Below the pieces are notes generated by a model. The model saw only the letters and a list, made by a program, of their open reading frames with translations. It had not been told where the DNA came from and searched no databases. The translations under genes and the position numbers were made by a program. Source: Zoogloea sp. 1C4 (GTDB taxonomy: Bacteria; Pseudomonadota; Gammaproteobacteria; Burkholderiales; Rhodocyclaceae). From it: a stretch of 64,000 bases of DNA. The stretch lies in the NCBI RefSeq assembly GCF_009469605.1, contig NZ_SSXU01000008.1, positions 62,001 through 126,000 of the forward strand. Reading direction: 5' to 3'. Numbering within the stretch: the first letter of the stretch is position 1; each line of letters opens with the position of its first letter. Of this stretch, positions 4,256 through 30,875 are shown piece after piece.

Positions 4256-5035
4256 CTAATCCGCCGGTTTCGCTTCTGCCCGCCGGAAAGCTTCCAGCAG
4301 ACGGAATTCTTCCTTGCTCAACGCACGACCTTCCAGCAGATCCGGCCGCCGCTGTTCGGTGCGGCCGAGGGACTGCTGGAGCCGCCAGCGCCGGATCTCG
4401 GCGTGATTACCAGACAGCAGCACGTCCGGCACCGCCATGTCCTCGTAGAGCACCGGGCGGGTGTAGTGCGGGCAATCCAGCAGACCATCGACGAAGGAAT
4501 CCTCCACCGCCGAATCCTCGTCGTTCAATGCGCCCGGCAATTGCCGGATCATCGAGTCGAGCAATACCATTGCCGGCAACTCCCCGCCCGAAAGCACGAA
4601 GTCACCCAGCGAAATCTCTTCGTCGACGCAGCGTTCAATCAAACGCTGATCAACACCTTCATAGCGGCCGCACAACAGCACCACGGCCGGCTCGGCCACA
4701 AGCTCGAGCACACGCGCGTGATCCAGACGGCGCCCTTGGGGCGACAGGTAGATCACCCGACCTGCACTGCCGACCGAAGCCTGCTGACGCGCCTTGGCGG
4801 CGACGATCGCCTTCTCGAGCGGACCGGGCAGCATCACCATTCCGGGGCCACCGCCATAAGGGCGATCATCCACAGTACGGTAACGGTCTTCGGCAAAATC
4901 CCGGGGATTCCAGCAGTTGAGCTCGTAGAGCCCACGCTCCCGGGCACGCCCGGTGATCCCGAATCCGGACAGCGCCGAAAACATTTCAGGAAACAGCGTG
5001 ATGACGTCAAAGGCCCTGCGACCAGAAGCCGGCAT
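4256..5035 (-). CDS. trmD: tRNA (guanine37-N1)-methyltransferase
   Basis: SPOUT-family methyltransferase that makes m1G37 in tRNAs reading CNN codons, which prevents +1 frameshifting. [11 protein letters not shown] at the N-terminus, [13 protein letters not shown], the knot segment [12 protein letters not shown] and [16 protein letters not shown] are the classical TrmD signatures. The ATG at 5035 is preferred over an upstream codon at 5053 because it overlaps the rimM stop (TGATG-type junction), which implies translational coupling. It gives 259 residues, close to the usual 245-260. It is third in the conserved four-gene operon. Confidence 0.97.
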
Positions 5036-5538
5036 CACCAATCCGCTTCCCACTCCACCGAAATCACGCCAGCAGCAACATCCACCTTGCCGACATAGCT
5101 CGCGACGAAGGGAATCAGGCGCTCGGTATCGCCATCCTGAATCTGCAGCACATCGTGCGCGCCCGTGGACAGCAAGCCAGTCACCTTGCCAAGAACGACG
5201 CCAGCGGCGTTGCGCACTTCCAGGCCGATCAGATCGCCCCAGTAGAATTCGTCCTCGTCGGGCTTTGGCATCGCCTCCCGCGGGGCTGCGATGTAGTAAC
5301 CCGCGACGGCTTCCGAAGCGTTGCGGTCGGGCACTTCGGCAAAGGCGGCCACAAGATCGCCCTTGCCATGCTCCTTACAGCCCGTCAACGTGTACGGCAC
5401 CCAGTCCGAACCATCAGGATCGGTACCGAGCCACCATTGGGGCATTTTCTTCCATGACAGCGGATCATCCCCGAAAGGATGAACCCGCACCCAACCCTTG
5501 ACACCGAAGGGAGCGACAATTCGCCCCAATACAATCAT
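5035..5538 (-). CDS. rimM: Ribosome maturation factor RimM
   Basis: Assembly factor that binds S19 and the 30S head and is needed for late 16S rRNA processing. The start at 5538 gives [19 protein letters not shown], the conserved N-terminal PRC/RimM opening; a longer upstream extension would run back into rpsP and is rejected. The 167 residues include the C-terminal PRC-barrel segment with [12 protein letters not shown] and the ending [25 protein letters not shown]. It lies between rpsP and trmD, as in most proteobacteria, and shares its stop with the trmD start. Confidence 0.96.
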
Positions 5539-5575
5539 TGATCGACGCTCAGAAGGCTGGGTTTGATACCGACGC

Positions 5576-5827
5576 TCAGGCAGCAGCCTTGGCGGACTGC
5601 TTGACGAGACGGGCGACGGTGTCGGAAAGCTGAGCACCGTTGCCTTGCCAGTAGGCCAGGCGCTCGGTGTTCACGACGAGGCCCTTTTCAGCGCCCGAGG
5701 CAACCGGGTTGTAGAAACCAACGCGCTCGATGAAACGGCCATCGCGGCGATTGCGGGAATCAGCGGCGACGATGTTGTAGAAAGGACGCTTCTTGGAACC
5801 GCTGCGGGCAAGACGAATGACAACCAT
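5576..5827 (-). CDS. rpsP: 30S ribosomal protein S16
   Basis: Small-subunit assembly protein. The start at 5827 gives [20 protein letters not shown], which matches the S16 N-terminus; longer in-frame extensions carry no S16 sequence. The 83 residues include [15 protein letters not shown], the most conserved block. A promoter with near-consensus spacing lies just upstream, so this is the first gene of the rpsP-rimM-trmD-rplS transcript. Confidence 0.97.
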
Positions 5828-25708: not shown

Positions 25709-25742
25709 AAAATGGCCACGCAACTGCGTGGCCATTTTTTTG
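25709..25742. terminator. Bidirectional rho-independent terminator after valS
   Basis: The stem AAAATGGCCACGC / GCGTGGCCATTTT (25709-25721 and 25726-25738) closes an AACT loop and is followed by more T residues. It separates the convergent valS and TusA-family genes. Confidence 0.93.
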
Positions 25743-26248: not shown

Positions 26249-26614
26249 ATGCGCTCAAACATGCTCCAAACGGTTCTCAATGACCTGAACGGCACCTCCG
26301 CGGACATCGAGGCCTCCGCCATCATCTCCTCCGACGGTCTGATGATGGCCGCCCTGCTCCCCAACACCGTTGACGAAGACCGGGTCGGCGCGATGAGTGC
26401 CGCGATGCTCTCCCTCGGCGACCGTACCGCCCGCGAACTCGCCCGCGGCACCCTCGACCAGGTGCTCATCAAGGGTGAAAAGGGTTATGTCCTGATGGTT
26501 CAGGCCGGTGCCGATGCCGTGCTCACCGTGATGGCCAAGCCGAACGCCAAGCTGGGCCTGGTCTTCCTGGACGTCCGCCGCGCCGCCGACGCGATCGGCC
26601 GGATCCTCGGATAA
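26249..26614 (+). CDS. Roadblock/LC7-domain protein (CvnB/MglB-like)
   Basis: A 121-residue protein that is entirely one Roadblock/LC7 domain: helix 1 (MLQTVLNDLNGTS), strand pair IEASAIISSDGLMMAALLP, the long central helix (DRVGAMSAAMLSLGDRTARELARG), then VLIKGEKGYVLMVQAGADAVLTVMA and a C-terminal helix. Roadblock proteins dimerise and act as GAPs, GEFs or scaffolds for small Ras-like GTPases. CvnB in actinobacterial conservons and MglB in Myxococcus are the closest functional models. Here it heads a seven-gene run that encodes a CvnD-like GTPase at 29690. The ATG is preceded by AAGG at 26235-26238. Confidence 0.92.
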   Translation: MRSNMLQTVLNDLNGTSADIEASAIISSDGLMMAALLPNTVDEDRVGAMSAAMLSLGDRTARELARGTLDQVLIKGEKGYVLMVQAGADAVLTVMAKPNAKLGLVFLDVRRAADAIGRILG

Positions 26615-26629
26615 TCGGGAGGGCTGGTA

Positions 26630-27103
26630 GTGAAGGATATGGATCGCGCCCAGGTTCCGGGCGAAGCAGTCGAACATACGCTGACGTTTGCCGATGGCAC
26701 CTGTCGGCGGGTATTTGTCACGTCAGTCGAAACGCCCTATCCCCATGGCAAGCTGATCGTCTCCCGGACGGACACGTCGGGCGTCATCACCCAGTGCAAT
26801 AAATCCTTCGTTGACATGTCCGGCTACACCGAAGCCGAACTGATCGGCCAGCCCCATTGCATCCTACGGCATCCTGACATGCCCGCGGCCGCCTTCGCTG
26901 ACCTGTGGAAGACAGTCCAGGCCGGGCGCCAGTGGCACGGCTACGTCAAGAATCTGCGTAAGGACGGCGGCCACTACTGGGTGTACGCCACGGTGGTTCC
27001 CAATGTGCGCAACGGCGAAATCGTCGGTTTCACCTCGGTCCGGCGGGAGGCCTCGCAAGAAAAGATTCTCGCCGCAGAAGCCCAGTACCGGAGCATGAAC
27101 TGA
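26630..27103 (+). CDS. Free-standing Aer-like PAS protein
   Basis: A 157-residue cytoplasmic protein made of a short N-terminal tail and a PAS domain (about residues 35-145). It closely follows the PAS of the aerotaxis receptor Aer: a NKSFVDMSGYTEAELIGQPH helix, the RHPDMPAAAFADLW segment and the KNLRKDGGHYWVYA strands. Even the end (SQEKILAAEAQYRSMN) mirrors the post-PAS part of Aer. In Aer this fold holds FAD and reports redox state; here no HAMP or methyl-accepting domain follows. The GTG at 26630 is favoured by GGGAGGG 6 nt upstream; an ATG lies three codons later. It sits 15 bp after the Roadblock gene. Confidence 0.88.
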   Translation: MKDMDRAQVPGEAVEHTLTFADGTCRRVFVTSVETPYPHGKLIVSRTDTSGVITQCNKSFVDMSGYTEAELIGQPHCILRHPDMPAAAFADLWKTVQAGRQWHGYVKNLRKDGGHYWVYATVVPNVRNGEIVGFTSVRREASQEKILAAEAQYRSMN

Positions 27104-27105
27104 TC

Positions 27106-27852
27106 ATGACCTTCAATTTCTCGGTTAGCCCCAGCTTCCCCAACGAGCGCATTTCCGACTGGTACATCTTCAACACCTGGCTGCAACGCGCGCTGTCCCT
27201 GCCGATCCATCTCGAGCTCTACGACAGCTTCGGCACCCAGCGCGCCGCGATCGCCGAGGGCAAGGTGGACATCATCTACGCCAACCCCTTCGACGCCTCC
27301 CTGCTGGTGCGCGAGAAAGGCTTCCGTGCAATCGCCCGGCCCGAAGGGCAGCCTGACGAGATGGTCGTCATCACCGCCGCCGAGAGCCCTTTCAAGGAGA
27401 TCCCCGATCTCAAGCCCGGAGCCCGCGTCGCGTGCAGCGATGACCCGAGCGTCAACACCGTCGGCCGGATCCTCCTCGAACCCGCCGATCTGAACGCAGC
27501 CAACACCGTCGAGCACCGCCGCGAAACCTACATCCAGGTCGCCCGCGAGATCCTCCGCGGCGAAGCCGATGTCGGCTTCCTGCCGGTCGAAGCCTTCGAG
27601 GCCCTGTCGTCCATCGTGCGCCGCGACCTGCGCGTGCTCGTCACCAGCCAGGTGCACGTAATCCATCACGTCTTCCTGATCGGCCCCGCTTTGTCTCCCC
27701 ATGCCGAACAGATCACGCAACTGCTTCTTTCCATGCACGACACCGACAAGGGCCGCGGTATCCTCGAAGCCCTCGGAGCCCGTAGCTGGCAAGCTGTTCA
27801 GCACGAGGACGTGGAATTCATGATCGACATCATCTCGACGCTGACCCAGTGA
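27106..27852 (+). CDS. PhnD-like substrate-binding protein without signal peptide
   Basis: A 248-residue periplasmic-binding-protein fold of the phosphate/phosphite/phosphonate (PhnD-like) type: NFSVSPSFPNERISDWYIF start, DIIYANPFDASLLVRE, ARVACSDDPSVNTVGRILL, and REILRGEADVGFLPVEAFEAL hinge-region sequences. The N-terminus begins directly with the first strand; there is no hydrophobic leader or lipobox, so the protein should stay in the cytoplasm. No transporter genes flank it. It starts 2 bp after the PAS gene and overlaps the next gene by four bases, which suggests it supplies a ligand signal to the GTPase module rather than importing anything. Confidence 0.85.
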   Translation: MTFNFSVSPSFPNERISDWYIFNTWLQRALSLPIHLELYDSFGTQRAAIAEGKVDIIYANPFDASLLVREKGFRAIARPEGQPDEMVVITAAESPFKEIPDLKPGARVACSDDPSVNTVGRILLEPADLNAANTVEHRRETYIQVAREILRGEADVGFLPVEAFEALSSIVRRDLRVLVTSQVHVIHHVFLIGPALSPHAEQITQLLLSMHDTDKGRGILEALGARSWQAVQHEDVEFMIDIISTLTQ

Positions 27853-28325
27853 AGCTGTTTGTCACCGATCCGTCCAACCCGGAACGCATCCGCCGTCCAG
27901 CACCGCCGGCCGTCTTCGGCCTGCCCGTCCGGACGCTGCGGATCGCGTCCCGCTGGCGCTCGCCGGCCACAGGCGCACTGCTGGCCGGCGAGATCGGGCG
28001 CAAGCCAGCCAACCTGCACCTGCACGTCCAGCGTATTTCCCTGTGGAGCAACCTGGAAGACACCGCGGCAACGGTCGCGGCCATTGTCGACCTATGGATC
28101 GTCCTTGGCAGGTACGGCGCCGAACTTCGGATGCGCATGCTGCGCGAGCACTACGACGCCCTCGAAGAGCACGATCTGGGGCTTTACCTCAGCGCCCGCA
28201 TCGAAGACGGCCTCGACCGCCACGACCCGCGGCTCGCCCTGCCCGGTGTCGTACTCGCCCGCCCAGTGGAAGGCAATCGCATATTTTTACAGGATTCCGC
28301 GACGCTGTCGGGAGTAACCTCCTGA
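27849..28325 (+). CDS. Unknown protein of the Roadblock/GTPase operon
   Basis: A 158-residue soluble protein, GTG start (GTGA overlaps the stop of the preceding gene). I recognise no family. Residues 20-70 look like beta strands (VRTLRIASRWRSPATGALLAGEIG, HLHVQRISLWSNLE), followed by one long helix (about 72-110, TAATVAAIVDLWIVLGRYGAE...LREHYDAL) and a short mixed C-terminus. There is no signal peptide or membrane span. The tight coupling on both sides argues that it is part of the same pathway as the GTPase. Confidence 0.75.
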   Translation: MKLFVTDPSNPERIRRPAPPAVFGLPVRTLRIASRWRSPATGALLAGEIGRKPANLHLHVQRISLWSNLEDTAATVAAIVDLWIVLGRYGAELRMRMLREHYDALEEHDLGLYLSARIEDGLDRHDPRLALPGVVLARPVEGNRIFLQDSATLSGVTS

Positions 28326-28353
28326 TCCCGACCTCCATCCGCTTTACATCCCA

Positions 28354-29700
28354 ATGAGCCGCCATTCCATCCTACCGGGCCAGCCCGTCACCGCCCTCTT
28401 CCTGCTCCACGTGGGCAGCATGGACGCCCGGCTGATCGGACTTTCCGTAGAACGTCACTGGAAGCACTCGGTACGTCTGGCGAGCGAGCTGGAAAGCGCC
28501 CGGGTCGTCCTGGTCGATTGCGATCGGCCAGGCGTCGAAGCCGCATTCGAAAGGCTCTCGCCCCACCCGAGGATCGGCGTGGTCTGCTACGCATTCCACC
28601 CCAAGGATCACTCCCAGCGTTTTCCCAACCGGGTGATCCTCGGCAAGCCCCTCAATCTCGAGGCGCTGCCCAGCATCCTCGCCAAGGCGGCTCACGACAG
28701 CGCCCGGACCATCGCCGCGCCATCCCTGCGCCGTGCCGCGCCGCTGACCCAGCCCGCACCGCCGACCATCCAGCCCGGATCCGAGGAACCGCCGCGGGTA
28801 CCCATCGTCACGCCGGCCTCCCCGGTTCCCGCGGTGGTCGTGGCCGCCGCGCCCATCGTCCAGGCCGAGCTGCAGCCCCAGTCCGGCACGACTGCCGCAC
28901 CACCCGTCAGCGCCCCCCAGGCCGACCCACCGGGTTCCCTCGGGCACGGCGTGCAGACCGACGACGAACGCGATCTCTGCGGAGCCCTTGAAGATCTCCC
29001 GGCGCACCCGGTCCATCCCCTGCCCGACAAGATCTTCTTCAACCCGGACAACTACCTGATCGGCCACCTGCAGCGCGCCTTCGATCAGGCCTCGAGCACC
29101 GGCCGCCCTCACCTGATCGCCGGCCTGCCCCGGCTCATCGGCGTGCGGCTCCAGCCGGCCTCGATCTGCGTCACCGATTTCCGGGACAACCAGCTGCGCC
29201 CCCTGTCGATGGCCCAGCTGCCCCAGACCACCGCGCGCATCGTCAGCGCGTCGACGCTGTCCCACATCTCCAACCACGGCACCACCTGGACGACCGAGGA
29301 CTTCTTCTGGAACGTCGCCGCCTGGGCGGCCCGGGGCCGGCTGCCGGAAGGCACCGACCCCTACCAGCCGGTGCGGCTGCGGGCGTGGCCCAACTTCACC
29401 AAGGTCTTCATGTCGCCCCACGCCCTGCGCATCGTCGCCCTGTGGGTGCGCACCTGGGCCAGCCCCATCGACGTCGCCGCACGCCTCGGGATTCCCCAGC
29501 GCTACGTCTTCTCGGTCTATGCCTCGGCCCGCTTTGCCGGGCTGATCGACGCAAGGAAGCCGCGGGCCGCCACGGTGGAGGCGCGCACCGCCACACCAAC
29601 ACAACCCACGACGAACGCGGCGCCCCCTGCACAGCAACAACAACAACAACGCCCTTCGATTTTGTCCCGAATTCTCAGGAAACTCCTCAATGCGGTCTGA
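28354..29700 (+). CDS. Pseudo-receiver plus winged-helix protein
   Basis: A 448-residue soluble protein with three parts. Residues 12-112 look like a receiver fold that lost its signature: the strand ARVVLVDCDRP stands where the phospho-Asp should be and ILGKPLNLEALPSILAKA looks like the KP loop and last helix. Residues 118-205 form a Pro/Ala/Val linker. Residues 220-400 are helical and end in a winged helix, MSPHALRIVALWVRTWASPIDVAARLGIPQRYV followed by FAGLID; a Gln/Pro/Thr-rich tail with six consecutive Gln ends in a basic helix. The wHTH resembles the DUF742/CvnC design that partners Cvn GTPases. It overlaps the GTPase gene by 11 bp. Confidence 0.8.
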   Translation: MSRHSILPGQPVTALFLLHVGSMDARLIGLSVERHWKHSVRLASELESARVVLVDCDRPGVEAAFERLSPHPRIGVVCYAFHPKDHSQRFPNRVILGKPLNLEALPSILAKAAHDSARTIAAPSLRRAAPLTQPAPPTIQPGSEEPPRVPIVTPASPVPAVVVAAAPIVQAELQPQSGTTAAPPVSAPQADPPGSLGHGVQTDDERDLCGALEDLPAHPVHPLPDKIFFNPDNYLIGHLQRAFDQASSTGRPHLIAGLPRLIGVRLQPASICVTDFRDNQLRPLSMAQLPQTTARIVSASTLSHISNHGTTWTTEDFFWNVAAWAARGRLPEGTDPYQPVRLRAWPNFTKVFMSPHALRIVALWVRTWASPIDVAARLGIPQRYVFSVYASARFAGLIDARKPRAATVEARTATPTQPTTNAAPPAQQQQQQRPSILSRILRKLLNAV

Positions 29701-30250
29701 ACGCGCCCGCCACAACAAGATCATCTTCTCGGGCACCGTCGGCGCCGGCAAGAGCACGGCCATTGCGGCCCTCAGTGACATCCCGCCGGTCAGCACCGAA
29801 GCGGTCGCCAGCGACGAAACCGCCAAGCTCAAGCGGACCACCACGGTCGCGATGGACTACGGCGTCCTCAACCTGCCGGACGGCGAGAAGGTCATGCTCT
29901 ACGGCACGCCGGGGCAGGAACGCTTCAGCTTCATGTGGGACATCCTCTCCGAAGGCGGCATCGGCCTGGTGCTGCTCATCAACAACGCCAACCCCGATCC
30001 GCTCGCCGATCTTCAAGGCTACCTCAGCGCCTTCAAGGACTTCATCTCGAGCACCGCCGTCGCGATCGGCGTCACCCACATGGACAGTTCCGAGACCCCG
30101 AATCTCGAAAACTACCGGGCCAAGCTCGCCGAGCTCGGCCATCACCCCATCCCGGCCATCTTCCGGGTCGATGCGCGAAGCCGCGACGACGTGGCGATGC
30201 TCGTCAAGGCCCTTCTCTACACCCTTAATCCCGGATTGATCGATGCTTGA
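29690..30250 (+). CDS. Ras-like small GTPase (CvnD/COG2229 type)
   Basis: A 186-residue single-domain GTPase. The P-loop is GTVGAGKST (15-23), the switch I region KRTTTVAMDYG (48-58), and switch II is YGTPGQERFSFMW (71-83). In switch II the usual DxxG aspartate is replaced by Gly, as in the COG2229 family. The NKxD position reads THMD (129-132) and the SAK-like loop is DARSR (161-165). These features, including the IPPVSTEA segment, match CvnD proteins of actinobacterial conservons more than MglA. Partner Roadblock domains are encoded at 26249 and 30243. The start overlaps the upstream gene by 11 bp and its end overlaps the next by 8. Confidence 0.92.
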   Translation: MRSERARHNKIIFSGTVGAGKSTAIAALSDIPPVSTEAVASDETAKLKRTTTVAMDYGVLNLPDGEKVMLYGTPGQERFSFMWDILSEGGIGLVLLINNANPDPLADLQGYLSAFKDFISSTAVAIGVTHMDSSETPNLENYRAKLAELGHHPIPAIFRVDARSRDDVAMLVKALLYTLNPGLIDA

Positions 30251-30875
30251 GATAATCCCCGGCTCCTACCTCACCGTAACGCCTTACGGTGCCTGGCGGG
30301 CCGTTGCCCGCGCCGACGACAGCATCGAGCGGCGCATCCTGCTGGCCATCCTTCGCGAAGCCACGAGCCCGGCCCTCAGCGCCGAACTGGCCCGCACCTG
30401 GACCGGCGAGACCAGCACCGAACGCGCCCTGACTCCGCTGCTCAAACTCCAGGAAACGGCCTGCCTCGAGGCGTGGTCCGCACCGCGCATGGCGCCGGTC
30501 GGCACCCTCGAATCGACCCTGCCGCATCTGCTCGAAACCCTCAGCGATACCGGCCAGGCCGTGCTCGCCGACAACATGGGCTTTTGCCTCGCGATGGCCG
30601 GCTACCCCGGCGAGACCGGCGAAGCGCTGGCTGCCGTGGGCGCCGACATCCTGTCCGTCGCCGAACGCCAGTCGGCCGCGCTCTCGAAGCTCGGCGACCA
30701 CCTGCTCGATGGCTGGGGCAACGTGGACGCCGCCGGCATCAGCGGCCTCAGCTTCTGGCCGATGCACATCGGCCGGACCCGCCTCGCCCTCACCGTCAGC
30801 GGGCGCCCGCGCTTCAACCAGAACACCTTTGCCGACCTGGTCTGGGCGCTCTACGTGCGCTACGGCACCATCTAG
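30243..30875 (+). CDS. Winged-helix plus divergent Roadblock-like protein
   Basis: A 210-residue soluble protein. Residues 25-80 (IERRILLAILREATSPALSAEL...ALTPLLKLQ) have a winged-helix pattern. Residues 88-208 parallel the Roadblock protein at 26249: a first helix (LESTLPHLLETLSD), strand pair AVLADNMGFCLAMAGYP, then GEALAAVGADILSVAERQSAAL, the counterpart of the central helix, and a C-terminal helix (NTFADLVWALYVRYG). This would give the operon two Roadblock-type subunits, allowing a heteromeric GTPase regulator. The similarity is by eye and needs profile searches. It overlaps the GTPase gene by 8 bp and ends 3 bp before the convergent M48 gene. Confidence 0.75.
   Translation: MLEIIPGSYLTVTPYGAWRAVARADDSIERRILLAILREATSPALSAELARTWTGETSTERALTPLLKLQETACLEAWSAPRMAPVGTLESTLPHLLETLSDTGQAVLADNMGFCLAMAGYPGETGEALAAVGADILSVAERQSAALSKLGDHLLDGWGNVDAAGISGLSFWPMHIGRTRLALTVSGRPRFNQNTFADLVWALYVRYGTI

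Follow-up and report, generated by a model that had tools for sequence, protein, structure and literature searches.

The seven genes at positions 26249-30875 of a 64,000-nucleotide stretch of the Zoogloea sp. 1C4 genome (contig NZ_SSXU01000008.1, positions 62,001 to 126,000; the window) encode a small-GTPase signalling system. In the reading that we somewhat favour, five of them (g4, g5, g6, g7 and g1) form a Group 3 MglA-type G-protein system. This system carries an accessory two-protein sensor cassette (g2, a PAS protein, and g3, a PhnD-like protein), which would act via the Roadblock protein g1 on the GTPase g6. The gene identities are well supported. It is observed directly that g2 and g3 are paired and that sensor genes recur next to the Roadblock gene; the coupling of the sensors to the Roadblock protein, with docking and control of the GTPase, is predicted from this arrangement. 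More tentatively, at a little under even chances, the locus may represent a kinase-free class of G-protein signalling. Its universal socket would be a highly conserved Roadblock protein, to which interchangeable soluble sensors bind directly and so set the state of the small GTPase. Searches of the open-licence literature gave no description of the PAS–PhnD cassette, nor of the broader occurrence of soluble sensors next to Roadblock genes. Genomes, loci and contigs are denoted below by G, L and C numbers.

Gene content and the GTPase core

The seven open reading frames (ORFs) were confirmed at 26249-30875, all on the + strand, with spacings of +15, +2, -4, +28, -11 and -8 bp from g1 to g7. An initial annotation, made from the sequence alone, had described seven co-oriented genes that were tightly packed (overlaps or gaps of at most 28 bp), lacked a kinase and followed a logic of Roadblock, winged-helix and GTPase proteins. 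These points hold, including the absence of a kinase among the seven genes, which was assessed with the ORF list and Pfam.

The GTPase g6 (29690..30250, 186 amino acids (aa)) is a small Ras-like protein of the MglA family. Its best Pfam match is ATP_bind_1 (E=1.8e-11), a P-loop NTPase, while its match to the small-GTPase model TIGR00231 (E=6.6e-4) is below the cut-off. A sequence search against solved structures gave no strong match, the best being a Rab (E=0.018). The GTPase motifs are nevertheless clear: GTVGAGKS, TTTVAMDYG, GTPGQ, THMD and DAR. Group 3 MglA systems were described in 2014 in beta- and gammaproteobacteria (Wuichet and Sogaard-Andersen, PMC4316618). As presented in the available part of that source, they comprise a GTPase with GTPGQ and DAR and a G4 motif often without lysine, one or two MglB proteins, and a companion protein that begins like a receiver and ends in a winged helix (PMC4316618). 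g6 agrees with the motif description, with Thr in G2, GTPGQ in G3, a G4 without the usual Lys and DAR in G5.

g5 (28354..29700, 448 aa) consists of a pseudo-receiver, a long linker, a winged-helix-like region and a C-terminal helix. Its N-terminus adopts a receiver fold (Foldseek, best E=5.2e-4; the 50 best rows listed are receiver-type matches), as in the Group 3 companion. Residues 356-400 align weakly to the CvnC/DUF742 winged-helix profile (hhalign E=0.0012, probability 19%), and the model places helices at 357-394; Pfam gave no winged-helix match. Coupled MglB-type proteins are also encoded, one clear and one marginal. g1 (26249..26614, 121 aa) is an MglB-type Roadblock/LC7 protein (Robl_LC7 E=1.8e-15) and the constant neighbour of the sensor genes, while g7 (30243..30875, 210 aa), the other Roadblock-like protein, is divergent and extended at its N-terminus. 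g7 itself matches Robl_LC7 below the cut-off (E=0.017), and 8 of 15 members of its family match at E<=0.05 (best 4.7e-5). The remaining core protein, g4 (27849..28325, 158 aa), is small, helical and TPR-like. Its AlphaFold model has a mean predicted local distance difference test score of 79, and its TPR-like Foldseek matches are non-significant (best E=1.0). Relatives of g4 were found in 24 of the 42 fetched g1-type loci of a class-level sample of 369 genomes (the class sample). The Pfam search gave no family match for either g4 or g5.

That g4, g5, g6, g7 and g1 fit a Group 3 MglA system is well supported. The initial annotation had allowed for the system being already characterised under another name, and in its core it was (PMC4316618, as far as its available part goes). 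It had also called the operon conservon-like, and this we do not uphold. A true conservon, the actinobacterial G-protein system, moved into a betaproteobacterium would share the logic of Roadblock, winged-helix protein and GTPase. The DAR motif, also present in conservon GTPases, and the weak match of g5 residues 356-400 to CvnC point the same way. However, the unit lacks a kinase, g5 carries a receiver domain and the GTPase belongs to a separate clade. In a tree of 80 GTPase sequences, rooted on conservon rows and built without the published Group 1-5 MglA sequences, g6 is one of 70 proteobacterial sequences that form a clade (support 0.90); 3 sequences of Chloroflexota and 7 conservon rows lie outside it. 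The conservon rows, which represent 6 distinct loci because L197 duplicates L191, split from the other 73 sequences with a support of 0.99. PF05331 (DUF742) had no match at E<=0.05 in 18 g5 relatives, and hhalign returned no alignment of g7 with CvnC. Conservon membership, which we hold to be very improbable, was rejected for want of a CvnA kinase, for the missing DUF742 in those 18 relatives and for the position of g6 outside the CvnD clade.

The PAS–PhnD cassette

g2 (26630..27103, 157 aa) is a single-domain Aer-type PAS protein (PAS_3 E=2e-16) and a probable flavin adenine dinucleotide (FAD) redox sensor. In sequence it is most similar to the PAS domain of Aer, the aerotaxis receptor (PDB 8DIK, E=3.1e-39), which bears out the Aer-like assignment made initially. 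Residues N57, R80, H81, W93, W102, K107 and N108 are invariant in 20 of 20 aligned rows, and g2 keeps the RHPDMP stretch and the two tryptophans of Aer-type PAS sequences. The RHPDMP, W and N positions of the Aer PAS have a role in FAD binding.

g3 (27106..27852, 248 aa) has a PhnD/PtxB fold by sequence (PF12974, E=1.3e-40), here apparently cytosolic. Its alignment to PtxB/PhnD begins at the mature binding domain and, judged by eye without a predictor, no signal peptide was seen in the aligned relatives, in line with the first description of this protein. Where PtxB and PhnD have STSS or STSG, the STS(G) stretch that forms the S/T-rich oxyanion loop of PhnD-type phosphonate-binding proteins, the g3 family mostly has DDPxV(H/N)xxG. 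A C-terminal EFMID tail, present in g3, was found in 12 of 13 class loci retrieved without that motif as bait (14 of 15 with the whole-protein profile, before L136 and L137 were removed as lying on the same contigs as pattern hits). In the pattern scan described below, baited with EDVEFMI, the tail occurs in 19 of 21 rows and is there partly selected.

The PF12974 match would suit a transporter binding protein in an operon for phosphonate uptake or regulation. We give this hardly any credence, as the alignment starts at the mature domain and STS(G) is not kept. Phosphonate uptake was rejected because no signal peptide was seen by eye and, according to Pfam, none of the seven genes encodes a transporter.

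The same genome encodes a second PhnD-like protein (L138 4390-5118, contig C60), seemingly without a signal peptide (own gene call) and without the EFMID tail, which resembles by eye an extra PhnD-like protein of Halothiobacillus (L104 8355-9071). The two proteins may belong to a broader family of cytosolic proteins with the binding-protein fold. Another possible pairing is seen at L139 5464-6650, where a PhnD-like protein without a visible signal peptide lies beside a small protein that is SCP2-like by eye.

A pattern scan with one genome per species retrieved 40 loci, 19 of them outside Zoogloea-like organisms. In all 19, which span Pseudomonadota, Chloroflexota and Actinomycetota, the PhnD-like gene directly follows a PAS gene, and the two genes overlap by 4 bp in L103, L113 and L114 (own gene calls). 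g2 and g3 form a constant pair. The cluster includes a g1-type Roadblock gene in 11 of the 19 loci, and an MglA-family GTPase is present somewhere in 14 of the 19 genomes. Three Acidimicrobiia genomes have the GTPase together with a Roadblock and a CvnC-like gene in a conservon-like setting; DUF742 was confirmed for one, and the kinase-sized neighbour at these sites was recognised by size only, with the contig ending there in one. In the Chloroflexota pair genomes, the GTPase adjoins other proteins.

The class sample gave a consistent picture. PhnD-type matches at E<=1e-25 were detected in 20 of the 369 genomes, and in the 16 strongest (15 at E<1e-80 and the truncated G133 at 1.9e-74) the PAS and g1-type genes adjoin without exception. 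The remaining four were left out as weaker relatives (G085, G231, G299 and G339, E 1e-65 to 6e-26); they have no PhnD match on the contig of the genome's best Roadblock match. Second, weaker PhnD matches in G000 and G205 were not counted. The Group 3 GTPase (E<=1e-10) is found in 14 of the 16 cassette-bearing genomes, compared with 66 of 369 overall (Fisher p=9e-10, kinship ignored).

Around the GTPase genes of the class sample, the usual gene order is g4-g5-g6-g7-g1. All 15 class cassette loci outside the window keep g1-g2-g3 in that order, and g4-g5-g6-g7-g1-g2-g3 is complete in 10 of them. One more (L130) has this arrangement with a protoglobin gene between g7 and g1, three (L129, L135 and L137) show a cut or broken part of it, and one (L136) is without the GTPase. 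L134, with the PhnD-like gene split over two frames, and L135, with several broken genes, were both counted as cassette-bearing. The Zoogloea order, with g1-g2-g3 first, recurs complete in Alcanivoracaceae L110. Polaromonas L119 has g1-g2-g3, the GTPase and g7 in order, with diverged ORFs, recognised by eye, in the places of g4 and g5.

Conservation of the set in relatives was also examined. Among 19 loci fetched from other Zoogloea genomes, 12 show the full succession valS-g1-g2-g3-g4-g5-g6-g7-M48 peptidase gene; the remaining seven end at contig edges, and their visible genes of the seven keep the order. The seven-gene set is conserved far beyond chance in Zoogloea, as a unit of the kind first proposed. 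In one genome (L051, L100) the seven genes are present with valS and M48 not adjoining, and in the Accumulibacter-labelled L121 the genes also occur without adjoining valS or M48. g1 identity is 92-99% across the 14 fetched Zoogloea loci showing g1; wherever a contig shows valS as well, its valS fragment is no more conserved than g1. The g1 identity falls to 64-74% in other Pseudomonadota and 40-60% in Actinomycetota. A relative of the GTPase was found in 19 of 22 other Zoogloea genomes. None of 13 other genera of the family has one, and among 24 genomes from other families of the order it occurs once.

A terminator-like hairpin 3' of valS (25709..25738, + strand; 13-bp stem followed by a T run) may mark where the unit begins on its 5' side. 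With 3 hairpins of this kind, the window does not exceed shuffles (mean 3.8), so the count is uninformative, as is a promoter scan, with 0 sites against a shuffle average of 0.6. The genome also has a second Group 3 locus (L052 7054-9873, contig C56), with paralogues of g4-g5-g6-g7 and a GTPase 57% identical to g6. This locus is without g1, PAS or PhnD genes, and adjoins genes that resemble a TolC/efflux operon by eye.

Soluble sensors beside the Roadblock gene

We classified the 43 g1-type loci of the class sample (42 at E<1e-45 plus the broken L135) by sensor profiles, with a Pfam check of examples. The PAS–PhnD pair was present in 16 (L130 also has the protoglobin), protoglobin only in 5, a CZB protein in 2 and a FIST protein in 2. 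The CZB and FIST counts are minimum values, because the profiles used for these two were built from single sequences. The initial annotation had cast the PAS and PhnD-like proteins as stand-ins for the conservon kinase. Because 27 of the 43 loci are without the pair, it more plausibly counts as one type among several accessory soluble sensors. Since protoglobin, CZB or FIST proteins replace the pair in sister loci, g1 may be a socket for interchangeable soluble sensors.

Protoglobins were surveyed in 41 genomes chosen for having g1, giving 41 places, of which 4 below the family cut-off were dropped, leaving 37. Among those in frames shorter than 360 aa (stand-alone protoglobins), a limit set after the list was seen, 14 of 23 lie within 263 bp of a Roadblock gene, compared with 0 of 14 in longer frames (multi-domain ones); the chance of such an adjacency is about 0.001 each.

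Lone protoglobin genes directly adjoin Roadblock genes in L145, L149, L150, L140 and L141. L140 also has a GAF histidine kinase gene (4312-5655) after g1, in a locus lacking the GTPase, and is a kinase-bearing variant of the cluster. At L155 (2965-4200), a methyl-accepting chemotaxis protein gene lies approximately 280 bp downstream of g1.

In the open-licence literature, we found no description of a protoglobin tied to a Roadblock protein, none, by titles and abstract starts, of PhnD joined to one (the CvnF8 report, PMC13343842, being the only one there with a bearing on these systems), and no treatment of Roadblock, phosphonate and bacterial small GTPase together. For Roadblock/LC7-MglB with a sensor or globin, the only report found there was PMC4476040, whose available part describes HGbRL, a globin-Roadblock fusion known in Methylacidiphilum.

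Proposed coupling to the GTPase, probable output and known systems

Several observations weigh against an action of the pair through g1 on g6. No sensor gene was recognised by profiles in 18 of the 43 g1-type loci (2 of the 18 have <1 kb after g1), and g7 is only marginally a Roadblock protein (hhalign probability against g1, 4%). Outside Zoogloea, the pair occurs without an adjoining g1 in 7 of 19 loci, with the contig ending too early in 1 more, and no GTPase match was found anywhere in 5 of the 19 genomes, some of them incomplete. In Chloroflexota, Acidimicrobiia and tubeworm endosymbionts, pairs stand alone, with the MglA-family GTPase elsewhere in the genome. Such loci would be expected if the two proteins signalled on their own, and their genes simply shared a transcript with the GTPase system in certain bacteria. 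We regard this as rather unlikely, given that a g1-type gene clusters with the pair in 11 of 19 non-Zoogloea and 16 of 16 class loci across permuted gene orders, which shared expression alone would hardly account for.

Cassette loci without the GTPase count, in turn, against a GTPase-only model. Halothiobacillus L104/L136 has g1-g2-g3, g4, g5 and g7 with no GTPase; Luteimonas L116 and L117 have g1-g2-g3, g7 and a g4-like ORF, with neither g5 nor the GTPase, although one of the two genomes has a GTPase elsewhere. In two other genomes, L140 and L141 have g4, g5, g7 and g1 with no GTPase in the locus. Because of these loci, the Roadblock and sensor proteins may act without the GTPase. The pair and g1 could, for instance, act on g5 or another transcription complex, with the GTPase as a second, optional input. 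This fits L104/L136, L140 and L141, which combine g4-g5-g7-g1 with the pair or a protoglobin; the whole Halothiobacillus genome gave no GTPase match, and the L140 and L141 genomes gave none at E<=1e-10. We still find it unlikely, as 14 of 16 cassette-bearing class genomes retain the GTPase and Luteimonas lacks g5 as well.

Under the reading that we favour, with the cassette feeding a Group 3 system, g2 would bind FAD and track the cytosolic redox or electron-transport state like Aer. g3, probably translationally coupled with g2, would bind a small ligand or serve as its obligate partner. The pair would dock on g1 which, alone or with g7, would shift the GTP/GDP state of g6 in the manner of a GTPase-activating protein (GAP) or guanine nucleotide exchange factor (GEF), as MglB does on MglA. 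Once GTP-bound, g6 would work through g5 and the TPR-like g4, its targets being type IV pili, gene expression or both, and this route would require no kinase. The sensor role would fall to a protoglobin, CZB or FIST protein in sister loci. A sensor-driven switch, as envisaged in the initial annotation, is probably right.

The output is probably type IV pili and/or transcription, and the putative winged helix of g5 would permit direct gene regulation. PilB was above the family cut-off in 59 of 66 GTPase-positive and 193 of 303 other class genomes, a difference that is only suggestive, as it is confounded by phylogeny and genome size. The first count was made by hand from best E-values (negative: G094, G107, G237, G262, G295, G376 and G408), and the second was derived from a total of 252 genomes above the cut-off. 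One Group 3 locus with a protoglobin (L150 6565-10685) lies directly upstream of pilB-pilC, the only one of 60 scanned loci with PilB or PilC beside the system. In Snodgrassella, mutating an orphan MglB of a Group 3 genome alters spreading motility, an effect attributed to type IV pili in the available part of the report (PMC11112851).

No input to Group 3 MglA systems is named in the available parts of PMC4316618 and PMC11112851, and the sensor genes would be the first proposed input set. If they are the inputs, small soluble proteins would suffice to test which signals these bacterial Ras-like switches respond to, the candidate signals being oxygen or haem ligands (protoglobin), redox state (PAS) and a ligand (PhnD-like). 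The route would be one of sensor-to-small-GTPase signalling without a phosphorelay. If the socket reading is true, prokaryotes would have their own version of GAP/GEF regulation under sensor control, and a protein of periplasmic fold, once used in transport, would have become a cytosolic co-sensor and signalling partner.

Among known systems, Group 3 MglA systems are the nearest, sharing the beta/gamma lineage, the GTPase motifs, the protein with a receiver-like start (its winged-helix part being putative in g5) and the one or two Roadblock proteins encoded together. Their description, as far as available, makes no mention of a g4-like protein, of a PAS–PhnD pair or of protoglobin, CZB or FIST neighbours, and the terms 'phosphonate' and 'PAS domain' are absent from its main text (PMC4316618). 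The Snodgrassella mgl operon likewise has a Group 3 GTPase in a betaproteobacterium, and its orphan MglB-3, at 121 aa, equals g1 in length; mglB-3, however, is far from mglA in that genome, according to the available part of the source (PMC11112851). No Neisseriaceae relative of the PAS–PhnD pair was among the 40 pattern-scan loci. Escherichia coli Aer shares a closely related PAS domain, by sequence match, whereas g2 is free-standing, with no HAMP or methyl-accepting domain found by Pfam in its 157 aa. Conservons with CvnE/CvnF share the Roadblock, the winged-helix protein (putative in g5), the small GTPase and an accessory protein proposed as sensor: CvnF, of which CvnF8 complexes with the kinase CvnA. 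They act through that kinase, as stated in the accessible part of PMC13343842, whereas the present unit lacks a kinase and has its accessory genes next to the Roadblock gene. HGbRL, finally, shares the joining of a haem sensor to a Roadblock/LC7 domain. In the available account it is a fusion in one genus (PMC4476040), while here the partners are separate genes, encoding protoglobins (PF11563) or the PAS–PhnD pair.

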